A stretch of DNA of 64,000 bases from Labilibaculum antarcticum (lineage in GTDB: Bacteria > Bacteroidota > Bacteroidia > Bacteroidales > Marinifilaceae), in assembly GCF_002356295.1 (NCBI RefSeq), contig NZ_AP018042.1, forward strand, positions 2,450,361 to 2,514,360, read 5' to 3'. Of the stretch, positions 48,079 to 52,193 are shown piece by piece. The notes below the pieces were generated by a model that made no database searches, was not told the DNA's origin, and saw only the letters and a program-made list of their open reading frames with translations. A program made the position numbers and the translations under genes. The stretch's first letter is position 1. Every line of letters begins with the position of its first letter.

Positions 48079-50451
48079 ATGTCAGAAAACAATATCGAGA
48101 CTAATCCGATTATCGAACAGGAATCGAAATTAAGAACTTTTAAAAAACCTCTCATTATATTCTGGTCGGTTTTTTTGATTGGTGTCTTACTAGTTATTTT
48201 ATTTTTTGCCGGTGTTTCAAATGGTACATTTGGTTTTATGCCTTCATTTGAAGAGCTGGAAAATCCAGATAATAGTTTGGCTACCGAAGTGTATACCGTA
48301 GATGGTAACCTGATTGGTAAGTTCTATTTTGAAAATAGATCTTTTGTTGAATATCCTGATTTATCTTCATTTTTAGTAGATGCCTTGATAGCTACAGAGG
48401 ATGTTCGGTTTAATGATCATTCAGGAATTGATATTCGCGGTTTAGGTCGTGTTGCTATCGGATTGGTAACTGGAAATAGAAGTGCGGGAGGGGGAAGTAC
48501 AATTTCTCAGCAATTGGCGAAAATGTTGTTTCCACGTGAGAGTTTTGAGAAAAAATTTGATATCGTTTTTAGAAAATTTCGTGAATGGGTGATTGCGGTA
48601 AAGTTGGAGCGAAGCTATACTAAAGAGGAAATCATGACAATGTATTTTAATAAATTTGATTTTTTAAACCTGGCTGTGGGAATTAAATCGGCTGCGAACG
48701 TATATTTTAATACGACACCCGATTCTCTTCGTGTTGAACAGGCTGCTATGCTTGTGGGCATGGCAAAGAATCCATCCTATTTTAATCCCTTACGTAGGCC
48801 TGAATTGACATTGGATAGAAGAAATGTTGTTTTATCGCAGATGGTCAAGTATGATTACTTATCGGAGATGGAGTTCGATTCTTTAAAAAATATTCCATTA
48901 GAAATAGATTTCCAGAAAGTGGATCATAAAAGAGGAATGGCACCCTATTTTAGAGAGTACTTACGTGCTTCTTTTACAGCAAATAAACCGTTAAGAAATC
49001 AATATCCATCCTATGCATATCAGCAATTTCATAAAGATTCTTTAGAATGGGAAAGTAATCCTTTTTATGGATGGTGCAATAAAAATGTGAAAGTAGATGG
49101 AACTCCATACAATATATATACGGATGGACTGAAAATATATACAACCCTTGATTCCAGAATGCAGCGATATGCGGAAGAGGCTGTGGTTGAGCATCTGGGC
49201 TTGGATTTACAGATGGCATTTAACCGCGAGAAAGAGAATCATAAGAATCCTCCTTTTTCTGATGATTTAACTGACGAGGATGTCGCGCAAAATATTGAAA
49301 CTTCCATGAGAAGAAGTGAAAGATATCGTGTTTTAAAGAAAAATGGCATGAGTATGGATTCCATTCGATTGGTATTTAAGGATCCAACGAAAATGAAAAT
49401 TTTCACATGGAAAGGAGAAAGAGATACCATTTTGAGCCCTAATGATTCCATGCTTTACATGAAAGGATTTTTACGTGCCGGATTTATGTCAATGGAACCT
49501 CAGACCGGAGAAGTACGGGCGTATGTAGGAGGACCGAATTTTGAGCACTTTATGTACGATATGGTTAATGTTGGTAAACGCCAGGTAGGATCAGTGATAA
49601 AACCGTTTTTGTATACACTCGCGATGAAGGAAGGTCTAAGTCCTTGTGATAGGGTGCCAAACATTCCACAAACATTTATTTTGCCTGACGGTTCTCCATG
49701 GACAGCAAAAAATTCTACTGATGCCAGGAGCGGTGAAATGGTGACTTTAAAGTGGGGATTGGCTCATTCGGTGAATTATATATCCGGTTGGGTGTTGAAG
49801 CAAACCACACCAGAATCGGTTGTTGAAATGGCTCATAAAATGGGTATTATTAGTGAAATTGATCCGGTTCCATCTATCTTTTTAGGAACCTCAGAGATTA
49901 CGGTATATGAGATGGTTGGTGCGTACTCAACTTTTGTAAATAAAGGGGTTTACATCAAACCAAGTTTCATTACAAAAGTAGAAGATCACAAGGGAAATTT
50001 GCTTGCTCAATCGGTTCCTCGAAAACGCGAGGTGATGGATGAACGAACAGCCTATTTAATGACGAATTTATTGGAAGGTGTGGTTCAGAGAGGTACAGGG
50101 GTGAGATTACGGTTTACTTACGGTTTAAATAATCCGATTGGGGGTAAAACCGGAACTACTCAGAATCAGTCAGATGGCTGGTTCATGGGGATTACTCCCG
50201 AATTAGTATCCGGCGTATGGGTTGGTGCAGAAGATCGTTCTGTTCATTTTGAGGGGATTAGACTGGGACAGGGAGCGAATATGGCATTGCCAATTTGGGC
50301 TCTTTATATGCAGAAGGTTTATGCCGATAAAAGTTTAGGACTTACTCAGGGAGATTTTGAAAAACCAAGAGGTGTAAGTATAAATCTTGATTGTGATGAC
50401 GACTCAAATACGAATGAATTAATTGAGTCGGAGAATGACGATTTCTTTTAA
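48079..50451 (+). CDS. Class A penicillin-binding protein (PBP1A-type, bifunctional)
   Basis: 790 residues: a cytoplasmic tail, one membrane segment (about 27-50), a GT51 glycosyltransferase domain (ALIATEDVRFNDHSGIDIRG, GGGSTISQQLAKMLF) and a transpeptidase domain with GSVIKPF (Ser in S-x-x-K), SVNYISG and GGKTGTTQNQSD. It polymerises and cross-links peptidoglycan at the outer face of the inner membrane. About 40 bases after its stop a cobalamin riboswitch begins on the same strand. Confidence 0.96.
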   Translation: MSENNIETNPIIEQESKLRTFKKPLIIFWSVFLIGVLLVILFFAGVSNGTFGFMPSFEELENPDNSLATEVYTVDGNLIGKFYFENRSFVEYPDLSSFLVDALIATEDVRFNDHSGIDIRGLGRVAIGLVTGNRSAGGGSTISQQLAKMLFPRESFEKKFDIVFRKFREWVIAVKLERSYTKEEIMTMYFNKFDFLNLAVGIKSAANVYFNTTPDSLRVEQAAMLVGMAKNPSYFNPLRRPELTLDRRNVVLSQMVKYDYLSEMEFDSLKNIPLEIDFQKVDHKRGMAPYFREYLRASFTANKPLRNQYPSYAYQQFHKDSLEWESNPFYGWCNKNVKVDGTPYNIYTDGLKIYTTLDSRMQRYAEEAVVEHLGLDLQMAFNREKENHKNPPFSDDLTDEDVAQNIETSMRRSERYRVLKKNGMSMDSIRLVFKDPTKMKIFTWKGERDTILSPNDSMLYMKGFLRAGFMSMEPQTGEVRAYVGGPNFEHFMYDMVNVGKRQVGSVIKPFLYTLAMKEGLSPCDRVPNIPQTFILPDGSPWTAKNSTDARSGEMVTLKWGLAHSVNYISGWVLKQTTPESVVEMAHKMGIISEIDPVPSIFLGTSEITVYEMVGAYSTFVNKGVYIKPSFITKVEDHKGNLLAQSVPRKREVMDERTAYLMTNLLEGVVQRGTGVRLRFTYGLNNPIGGKTGTTQNQSDGWFMGITPELVSGVWVGAEDRSVHFEGIRLGQGANMALPIWALYMQKVYADKSLGLTQGDFEKPRGVSINLDCDDDSNTNELIESENDDFF

Positions 50452-50493
50452 AATTATAGTTGGAAGATCGATATATTTTCTTAAAATTGCAAA

Positions 50494-50663
50494 GATGTTT
50501 AGGTTCCCGAAAGGGAATAATAGGGAATCCTGTTTAAAGCAGGAGCTGTCCCCGCAGCTGTAGATTCCGGTTCGTTTTTCGAATCAATATTTTAAGTCAT
50601 TAGACCACTGTTCTGTAGAATGGGAAGGCACTTAAAATTGGAATAAGCCAGAAGACCTGCCTG
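50494..50663 (+). promoter_or_regulatory. Cobalamin riboswitch (complete aptamer)
   Basis: The conserved blocks of the cobalamin aptamer are all present in order: AGGTTCCCG (50501), GGGAATCCTG (50523), GGAGCTGTCCCCGCAGCTGT (50542), CCACTG (50605), TGGGAAGGC (50621) and the B12 box AGCCAGAAGACCTGCC (50646-50661). No gene for B12 uptake or use follows: there is only a 43-codon ORF and a terminator, and then the convergent radA gene. Confidence 0.93.
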
Positions 50664-50668
50664 AGATC

Positions 50669-50800
50669 ATGGATTTTAGCTTTCGGTGGAAAAAGCGGAA
50701 AGATTCAGTTTATTTCTTTCTATTCCGACGCTATCTGGTTCGAGCTGCCATACTCGAATCGACAAAATTCATAGTAACTGTTTATAAGGCCGAGACTTAA
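50669..50800 (+). CDS. 43-residue ORF directly after the cobalamin riboswitch (doubtful)
   Basis: ATG at 50669 lies a few bases after the B12 box; the product starts MDFSFRWKKRKDSVYFFLFR and ends with KAET. It is basic and hydrophobic and matches nothing I know. The sequence also folds: GGTTCGAG (50737-50744) pairs with CTCGAATC (50753-50760). It may simply be the RNA expression platform of the riboswitch, or a small regulated RNA or peptide. Confidence as a protein is low. Confidence 0.2.
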   Translation: MDFSFRWKKRKDSVYFFLFRRYLVRAAILESTKFIVTVYKAET

Positions 50801-50818
50801 GTTTCGGCCTTTATTTTT
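50786..50818 (+). terminator. Terminator of the riboswitch transcript, overlapping the end of radA
   Basis: Stem AAGGCCGA / TCGGCCTT, with further pairing possible inside and a TTATTTTT tail on the plus strand. The tail overlaps the convergent radA stop codon, so the plus transcript ends at the edge of radA. Confidence 0.85.
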
Positions 50819-52193
50819 ATCTGAAAAGGGTCTGAAATACTTCCCCGACCTTGCTAACCAAATGAATTTTTATTTTAAATTTTGAAGTGTCAAGTCCTTT
50901 GGAATTGTGCTTTGGAATGAAAATTTGTTTGAATCCCAGTTTCTCAGCCTCACTAATTCGCTGATCAATTCTACTAACAGGTCGGATTTCTCCTGATAAT
51001 CCGATTTCTCCGGAAAAACAGACCTCCTTTGGAATAGAGATATCTGTACTTGAAGATAATACGGCCAAAATTACAGCCAAATCGATGGCTGGATCATTTA
51101 CTTTGATTCCTCCGGCAATATTCAAAAATACGTCCTTGGTTGATAGTTTAAAGCCTGCTCTTTTTTCCAATACGGCTAAAAGCATATTTAATCGACGAAG
51201 ATCGAAACCTGTTGAAGAGCGCTGAGGAGTCCCGTAAGCAGCAGAACTAACTAATGCTTGTGTCTCTATAAGAAAAGGGCGCATTCCTTCTATTGATGCC
51301 GAAATAGTAACACCACTTAGGCTTTCATCATCTTGAGAAAGCAAAAGCTCGGATGGGTTCGAGACTTCTCGAAGTCCGTTGTGTTGCATTTCGTAAATTC
51401 CCATTTCAGAGGTAGAGCCAAATCGATTTTTTGTGGATCGCAAAATTCGATACATGTGGTTTTGATCTCCTTCGAATTGAAGAACAGTATCTACCATGTG
51501 TTCCAGAATCTTTGGACCTGCTAAATTTCCATCTTTGGTGATGTGACCAATGAGAATAACGGGTGTAGACGATTCTTTAGCAAAGCGCAGTAACTGAGAT
51601 GTACATTCTCTAATTTGCGATACACTGCCAGGGCCCGCTTCTATCGATTCGGTTGCAAGTGTCTGAATGGAATCAATAACGATGATATCCGGAGAGGTAT
51701 TTTTCACATGAGAAAAAATATTCTCCATTGAGGTTTCGCTTACAATCAGACAGTTTTCGTTATCCGAGTTAATGCGATTGCCACGAAGTTTTATTTGTTG
51801 AGCGCTCTCTTCGCCTGAAACATATAAAGTGGTGTAATTTTTTAAGTTTAAAGCAATTTGAAGCGCAAGTGTTGATTTCCCAATTCCAGGTTCACCGCCA
51901 ATTAATATTAATGATCCGGGAACTAATCCTCCTCCTAAAACTCTATTTAATTCCTCATTTTTGGTGTCGAATCTTGATGCTTCAGATGAAGATATTTCAG
52001 ATATTTTTTGTGGCTTGTTTTTCTTGCCTTGTCCATTGGATCCAATAATTTGTGAGGGGCTTGATTTTACCACAACTTCCTCGACAAAGGAATTCCATTC
52101 TCCGCATGAAGGACATTTCCCTACCCATTTTGCAGATTCTACTCCACAAGTTTGACAAAACCAGGCACTTTTTGTTTTTGCTTTGGTGGCCAT
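50817..52193 (-). CDS. radA: DNA repair protein RadA
   Basis: 458 residues. N-terminal C4 zinc finger (CQTCGVESAKWVGKCPSCGEW in pieces), RecA-like ATPase with Walker A GGEPGIGKSTLALQIA, the KNRFG motif (STKNRFGST) that marks RadA, and a C-terminal LonC-like domain (GGIKVNDPAIDLAVILAVLS, GEIGLSGEIRPVSRIDQRI). It assists branch migration in recombinational repair. Normal length. Confidence 0.97.
   Translation of the reverse strand: MATKAKTKSAWFCQTCGVESAKWVGKCPSCGEWNSFVEEVVVKSSPSQIIGSNGQGKKNKPQKISEISSSEASRFDTKNEELNRVLGGGLVPGSLILIGGEPGIGKSTLALQIALNLKNYTTLYVSGEESAQQIKLRGNRINSDNENCLIVSETSMENIFSHVKNTSPDIIVIDSIQTLATESIEAGPGSVSQIRECTSQLLRFAKESSTPVILIGHITKDGNLAGPKILEHMVDTVLQFEGDQNHMYRILRSTKNRFGSTSEMGIYEMQHNGLREVSNPSELLLSQDDESLSGVTISASIEGMRPFLIETQALVSSAAYGTPQRSSTGFDLRRLNMLLAVLEKRAGFKLSTKDVFLNIAGGIKVNDPAIDLAVILAVLSSSTDISIPKEVCFSGEIGLSGEIRPVSRIDQRISEAEKLGFKQIFIPKHNSKGLDTSKFKIKIHLVSKVGEVFQTLFR

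Follow-up and report, generated by a model that had tools for sequence, protein, structure and literature searches.

A cobalamin riboswitch without a downstream gene in Labilibaculum antarcticum as a candidate B12-gated antisense RNA to methylmalonyl-CoA mutase

A predicted cobalamin riboswitch in Labilibaculum antarcticum that is followed by no protein gene probably belongs to a B12-gated, trans-acting small RNA (sRNA) that represses mutAB at low B12. The locus, found in a 64,000-nt stretch of the genome (the window), joins a predicted aptamer to a conserved, structured, non-coding tail and a terminator, and the tail has conserved complementarity to mutA at two sites. mutA is the first gene of the AdoCbl-dependent methylmalonyl-CoA mutase. 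In the model that we propose, about 50490-50818 would be the gene for an sRNA of ~330 nt made of a cobalamin-sensing aptamer, an antisense domain and its own terminator. A linear element, GUAACUGUUUA, and a hairpin loop, CUGCCAUA, both exposed, would pair antiparallel with the leader of mutA and its start codon. Under B12 shortage, the free RNA would block mutA translation, and the cell would be spared an enzyme that it could not load with cofactor; with B12 available, the aptamer in its bound form (with P13 and its loop) would disarm or remove the RNA, and MutAB would be made.

A sequence-only reading of this DNA had claimed a complete cobalamin riboswitch, and cmscan bore this out with a full-length match to RF00174 (model positions 1-189 of 189; 92.3 bits, E = 1.3e-21; gathering score 31.5), the sole Rfam match at gathering score across the window. 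The aptamer starts ~10 nt upstream of the 50494 given earlier. It is followed by a tail of ~110 nt and then by a terminator at the end of the convergent radA; a protein gene is absent here, and none stands between riboswitch and terminator at the related loci that we read. The small hairpin at 50737-50760, the terminator, the 43-codon ORF and the convergent radA are all present as first described. The locus has the following features:

48079-50451, forward strand: PBP1A-type transglycosylase/transpeptidase, the upstream neighbour (Pfam PF00912, PF00905)
50482-50489, forward strand: putative promoter-like element TAAAATTG, aligned in relatives
50484-50678, forward strand: predicted cobalamin riboswitch aptamer (RF00174, cmscan), with B12 box
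50669-50800, forward strand: 43-codon ORF, not a conserved gene (alignment of 22 sequences)
50786-50818, forward strand: intrinsic terminator and U tract, the predicted sRNA end (stem 50786-50811; 11 pairs, 6 GC)
50817-52193, reverse strand: convergent neighbour, a RadA-like ATPase with Lon_C/ChlI domain (Pfam; synteny), which we take to be radA from the domain make-up of its product

The genome (5.72 Mb, one contig) has five cobalamin riboswitches, and each of the other four is followed by an ORF of at least 100 aa within 430 nt. By reading, TACATTTG or TAGATTTG stands at the equivalent place in these four. Their likeness to TAAAATTG, which in turn resembles what we assume to be the Bacteroidota -7 box (consensus TAnnTTTG), suggests that the sRNA would be transcribed from a promoter of its own.

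The B12-controlled sRNA, which the sequence-only reading had preferred, gains support from the tail. R1, a covariance model built on the 113-nt tail, matched 22 of the 56 family genomes, spread over 6 of 17 genera, and in these the tail is structured, terminated and as conserved as the aptamer. The predicted elements of the RNA, all on the forward strand, are:

50669-50676 with 50765-50772: long-range helix A, which closes a multi-way junction (99.4% of cells paired in 22 sequences)
50677-50733: helix B (anti-P13), UAGC..UCGG at 50677-50686 with CCGA.GCUA at 50725-50733 (RNAalifold)
50679-50696: P13 hairpin GCUUU/AAAGC, loop with UCGG (5 pairs invariant in 22 sequences)
50698-50720: P14 hairpin, inside helix B
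50737-50760: hairpin H2, stem 50737-50744 with 50753-50760
50745-50752: seed 2, formed by the H2 loop CUGCCAUA and complementary to UAUGGCAG at the start codon of mutA
50774-50784: seed 1, GUAACUGUUUA, complementary to UAAACAGUUAC, which lies 5-15 nt upstream of the mutA start codon (11-nt match)

Across the 22 aligned sequences, 93.6% of cells are paired in the whole fold (helix A, helix B, P14 and H2), compared with 31-60% when the partners are slid. The strongest structural support comes from H2, which shows compensatory changes at 6 of its 8 pairs; in the g221 genomes its stem is rewritten and its loop UUUGCCAUA kept. Helix A, helix B and P13 are more weakly supported, because changes in helix A are one-sided only, helix B (94.9% of cells paired; P14, 88.2%) has no compensatory changes, and the five P13 pairs, being invariant, offer no covariation. 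By reading, UUCGG hairpins like P13 also follow the genome's other four riboswitches, and the P13 loop is presumably the kissing loop L13. Since helix B pairs away this loop, alternation between P13 and helix B would be the expected B12 switch. Modelled folds with and without P13 forced, however, gave the seeds no consistently different accessibility.

The core of seed 1, GUAACUGU (then UUA), is invariant in the 22 sequences, and the seed 2 loop core GCCA is found in 22 of 22; in Marinifilum (g5) the seed 2 loops retain GCCA only. Both are complementary to one leader and start site of mutA, AAACAGUUAC-agu-UAUGGCAG, which in the own genome reads TTTTTAAACAGTTACAGTTATGGCAGAT, with the ATG inside it as start codon. 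This mutA lies at G000:C1:1836992, ~664 kb from the sRNA, and the order of the seeds is antiparallel to the site, as two-site pairing needs. A conserved seed is thus predicted to face a conserved target leader, as would be expected of a trans-acting base-pairing sRNA. The dual-site pattern ACAGTTAC-N0..28-ATGGCAGA occurred in 42 of 56 family genomes, at mutA in 41 of them, and only once in the own genome; the single match in G009 lies elsewhere than mutA, and a reversed control pattern gave 3 matches in the 56 genomes. ACAGTTACAGTTATGGCAGA is present in each of the 20 RNA-bearing genomes from which the mutA start was retrieved, mutA not having been found by search in two further RNA-bearing genomes (G001 and G434), and the AACAGTTAC element is present twice in five g221 genomes, G016 and G441. 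The protein sequence MAD/MAE already sets part of AUGGCAG, a point against the pairing model.

Duplex energies of the seed region were computed with the starts (-120 to +80) of 197 ORFs at loci of the own genome. Among these loci, L036-L059 form a biased set chosen by seed pattern, and L104-L110 were chosen by B12-binding domains. By duplex energy alone mutA came seventh, behind genes at the pattern-picked loci L054 and L045, an acyl-CoA dehydrogenase (L108), metH (pairing at +54 to +70; entered under two handles, L106 and L099) and a CoA-transferase (pairing at +24 to +37); what picks out mutA is the place of its site together with the second match. Its duplex energy of -14.8 kcal/mol was reached by 1 of 300 shuffled seeds. 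Within -40 to +20, energies of -12 kcal/mol or lower were found for 4 of 68 genes at B12 loci, mutA included, versus 0 of 72 controls (genes of the window and of two riboswitch loci, with 53 genes at pattern-picked loci set aside); shuffled seeds reached this energy in 0.52 genes on average, and 1 of 300 reached it in four. Taken by itself, the 11-nt match of the window RNA was not significant (p 0.089 for L004 in the ungapped test described below). A 15-mer seed pattern was not enriched in the own genome (24 matches versus 20 for the control), and mutA, whose site takes up 11 nt plus the loop, was absent from its list.

Two acyl-CoA dehydrogenase-like genes of the own genome, in the regions of B12-dependent mutase genes (L108 2691 and L109 11751), both have starts in ACTATGAATTTT, a 12-13-nt complement of the RNA's AAAATTCATAGT, and by this complementarity are possible further targets. 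Between mutA and mutB of the own genome lies a 131-aa ORF beginning MISKIRYEEIGQIIVQASYEVHKELGPGLLESVYE (L107 4884-5279, near G000 C1:1838883), which we take to resemble GxxExxY proteins.

The leader motif of mutA is also found in genera without an R1 match. Combining the B12 box with GTAACTGT gave matches in 23 of 56 family genomes, namely the 22 with R1 and G020, and none for the control. We then read every cobalamin riboswitch of 14 genomes, 81 in total: 58 from G018, G424, G013, G426, G440, G019 and G020, 18 from G165, G009, G022, G011, G015 and G431, and the own five. Of the 34 R1-negative family genomes, 12 are covered in this way. Ungapped runs of complementarity to mutA leaders were given p values from 100 dinucleotide shuffles (floor 0.01) for the best four riboswitches per genome, and gapped local scores were given z values from 60 mononucleotide shuffles. 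Several orphan riboswitch RNAs carry antisense to the mutA leader of their own genome. In G020, the terminator loop of L196 holds AACTGTAACTGTT, a 13-nt perfect complement of the leader (p 0.01), and the same RNA also has a hairpin loop CTGCCAT. L200 (G426) carries antisense TAACTGTAGCTG (p 0.01), L215 (G424) has ACGTAACTGTTT matching leader AAACAGTTACGT (p 0.01), L239 (G019) has an 18-nt run with one G-U pair, plus a gapped match that covers most of the leader (p 0.01), and L234 (G013) carries antisense TTCTCTGCCA (p 0.02). The stretches GTAACTGTTT and TCTCTGCCA of L206 (G018) were not significant (p 0.109). For L207 and L219 of G440 the antisense was gapped only (z 4.9 and 5.3), L219 having an ungapped p of 0.208 through another stretch and L207 falling outside the best four of its genome. 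Six gene-linked tails (L002, L005, L211, L233, L232 and L189) also came in at ungapped p ≤0.05.

Taken together, antisense to the own mutA leader had a mean z of 2.6 in 13 automatically called orphan riboswitches versus 0.2 in 68 gene-linked ones (Mann-Whitney p 0.0018), a comparison that keeps three orphans doubtful by reading (L201, with a 338-codon frame from TTG at +314; L242, with a broken 45-codon lipoprotein-like ORF; and L283) and one true orphan, L238, that has no antisense to mutA. L238 (G019:C89:22114-22315 and downstream) is a second riboswitch in G019 and is followed only by a 37-codon ORF, with the next frame at +483. L283 (G165:C14:25324-25523 and downstream) precedes a 94-aa ORF with the MetE-like start MQTHNLGYPRIGS, which then departs; we take it to be of the metE family and likely a remnant. 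In a cross test among 14 leaders, the own leader of the orphan RNAs ranked 1, 1, 2, 4, 9, 2, 1, 3 and 4, so that own-genome specificity is partial only, as expected because leaders are shared. An orphan riboswitch with some antisense to mutA was found in 8 of 8 family genomes with the AACAGTTAC leader (the own and seven others) and an orphan riboswitch in 0 of 5 without it, two of the five being only 83-84% complete and one, G009, having the near form AACAGTTAG. Outside the family, the AACAGUUAC leader motif was seen in 1 of 27 mutA leaders read (from 29 rows, leaving out one from within the family and one in which no start was found). That one belongs to G165, of another family, and an orphan RNA with antisense is absent among its six riboswitches. 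Because the relatives are not independent, all these counts overstate certainty.

By reading, there are at least five tail types, one of which resembles an inverted copy of its target. A wider proposal, somewhat on the doubtful side, is that pairing between seed and mutA would be the conserved unit of a cofactor-sparing system widespread in the family, whose scaffolds, genomic places and seed positions were replaced several times, with a possible extension in Labilibaculum to further B12 pathways and to a TonB-receptor leader as second antisense. That leader, the riboswitch region of a TonB-receptor mRNA (L002, G000:C1:4296633-4296838 and downstream), holds ATCTGCCATGACTG, a 14-nt complement, with one G-U pair, of the mutA start CAGTTATGGCAGAT (p 0.01). 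Of 11 loci read as leaders of this type, the own included, nine have TGCCAT and two (L294 and L301) are without it; L300 and L305 have the perfect 14-nt form. Judged by this complementarity, the leader may be a second antisense to mutA. Eight cobalamin riboswitches of relatives (L019-L022, L032, L186, L187 and L189) precede a gene whose product we take from its start to be like ATP-cone ribonucleotide reductase; such a reductase is perhaps a B12-independent alternative.

It is unlikely, but worth serious consideration, that this B12-controlled non-coding RNA acts through a protein, as a decoy or sponge of the Rli55/EutX kind, or on other mRNAs, and that its complementarity to mutA is incidental. 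The conserved multi-helix tail with its invariant hairpin-loop core could be a protein site, and the energies above show that other B12-linked starts score well too; these we take by reading to be acyl-CoA dehydrogenases (in icmF-like and lysine-aminomutase regions) and a corrinoid-methyltransferase gene. However, both conserved elements meet at one site, which the dual pattern finds singly in the genome, and orphan RNAs with other tails in other genera match the same leader. As for a decoy, direct reading of the tail showed that tandem short-loop hairpins of the ANTAR type are absent.

The sign of the proposed control is a separate question. That the seeds pair with mutA and the RNA nevertheless activates, or that B12 raises its activity, is improbable. 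Such readings draw on modelling, in which the seeds are largely accessible both in the free fold and in a fold with P13 forced and its loop unpaired, no consistent change in seed accessibility being predicted between the two across the 22 sequences. Against them, the pairing spans the start codon together with most of the preceding 15 nt, and pairing over a start codon usually blocks initiation; nor did a reading of the leaders reveal a clear inhibitory structure. In Xylanibacter ruminicola, B12 raises mutA and mutB mRNA and protein (log2 1.3-1.7), and the excerpted text of PMC11575231 reports no riboswitch near mutAB and gives the mechanism as not known. For strain KHP1 the paper describes four riboswitches, two of them ahead of genes for transport or biosynthesis and two with no partner of that kind. 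Pairing at the start codon, the AdoCbl dependence of the mutase and B12-raised MutAB in this other species of Bacteroidota are our reasons for favouring repression by the sRNA, its activity being lowered by B12 through a conformational or stability step.

The distribution of the tail bears on its history. A 379-nt query found counterparts for the greater part of its length in 12 of 40 genomes, the own included (the 11 others at 78-91% identity), and gave some match, mostly to the aptamer, in 25 of 40; by reading, the matches are syntenic, between PBP1A and radA. Only one genome of the same genus is without an R1 match, G005, which is 63% complete. In a sample of the order R1 was found in the own genome only (1 of 393), the listing of this sample showing five family members, and a pattern scan for the tail returned 15 named contigs, 6 from Labilibaculum, 8 from Marinifilum and 1 from a Marinifilaceae MAG. 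Mean pairwise identity among 12 sequences was 86% in the tail core, 81% in the aptamer and 55% in the terminator, and 17 of 18 columns of AAAATTCATAGTAACTGT were invariant. The terminator is replaced in sequence and kept in position in Marinifilum-like and g221 genomes. In g221 the RNA still follows PBP1A, radA is not found in the 1.6 kb downstream, and at five g221 loci a same-strand response-regulator gene begins beyond the RNA's own, different terminator. One locus, L071 (G441:C3:88677), reads as a mosaic, with an aptamer nearly equal to that of the g221 genome G417 and a tail like that of the sister genome G017, which suggests recombination inside the RNA gene.

The riboswitch could also be a relic that remained once a btuB-like gene or another B12 gene had been lost, an alternative raised in the sequence-only reading that we now consider very improbable. 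The genome's other four riboswitches do precede ORFs, and the aptamer has been exchanged in G441, but the invariant blocks and compensatory changes contradict decay, the tail is kept across 6 genera with terminators replaced yet retained, and a B12 gene at the equivalent place was found in none of the relatives among the loci read. Nor was the situation that would have spoken against an sRNA, a normal B12 gene in relatives and decayed sequence in this strain, seen among these loci. Control of PBP1A read-through, the other alternative raised, is rejected as unlikely because the riboswitch lies 3' of PBP1A with its own promoter-like element and because the RNA is kept in g221 without an adjacent radA (1.6 kb). 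Finally, a small protein under B12 control is ruled out for practical purposes: the window does offer an ATG and 43 codons, but in 22 aligned sequences (own included) the ATG is missing in 2, a stop follows within 2-23 codons in 14, and indels make the frames of the remaining 6 diverge, with the sequence still conserved as RNA.

Among the openly licensed PMC matches listed, we found no B12-riboswitch sRNA acting on methylmalonyl-CoA mutase or occurring in Bacteroidota; the excerpted report of a Flavobacterium transcriptome describes a cobalamin riboswitch before a transporter (PMC9723704). If the proposal of a B12-gated antisense RNA is correct, it could explain B12 induction of methylmalonyl-CoA mutase, and hence of propionate production, without a riboswitch at mutA. 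By analogy, it suggests a testable answer to a question left open in the available part of PMC11575231, namely how B12 raises the mutase with no riboswitch near mutAB. Other riboswitches annotated without a downstream gene would then merit a fresh look.

The parallel with Listeria and Enterococcus drawn in the sequence-only reading holds for the logic, as in decoys of EutV, and fails for the mechanism, since the evidence points to antisense with mutA mRNA. As in RNAs of the Rli55/EutX/AspocR kind, the riboswitch here precedes a conserved, apparently non-coding stretch that holds no gene and ends in a terminator of its own. In Listeria, according to the excerpted sources, B12 riboswitches govern the antisense RNA AspocR and the decoy Rli55, and a SAM riboswitch, SreA, acts in trans on prfA mRNA (PMC8079631, PMC9943018). 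AspocR, antisense to pocR in Listeria monocytogenes, would be closest in effect, as these excerpts describe a B12-riboswitch antisense RNA that keeps a B12-dependent pathway off without B12 (PMC8079631, PMC9943018). The same accounts place its gene opposite the target, with inhibition in trans also possible; the RNA runs to 1,400 nt, its target is a transcription factor, and a B12-triggered terminator shortens it. Here, by contrast, no early terminator was seen, the candidate seeds are short and the target lies ~664 kb away, and no cis overlap with a target was found, the RNA ending about at the radA stop codon. Rli55 is described in those excerpts as a B12 riboswitch followed by a non-coding RNA without a gene that restricts a B12-dependent pathway without B12; like EutX of Enterococcus, which we take to have the same arrangement, it sequesters the antiterminator EutV through ANTAR elements, whereas the elements here would be antisense to an enzyme mRNA. 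ANTAR-type hairpins have short A/G loops; by direct reading, the loops of P13, P14 and H2 are long and differ from these in sequence, and no tandem pair of the Rli55/EutX type is present among them. SreA is a riboswitch transcript that pairs in trans with the leader of an mRNA, as we propose for the candidate RNA; it differs, as far as it is described there, in being a terminated operon leader that senses SAM; the RNA here has no operon, and its predicted target enzyme uses the sensed cofactor. Sparing sRNAs of the RyhB type turn off the users of a scarce cofactor, and RyhB itself is controlled by the protein Fur. The RNA described here would share that logic with the sensor placed within the RNA itself, so that, if the proposal is true, one molecule would combine a metabolite sensor with a trans-acting antisense regulator directed at the very enzyme that depends on this cofactor.
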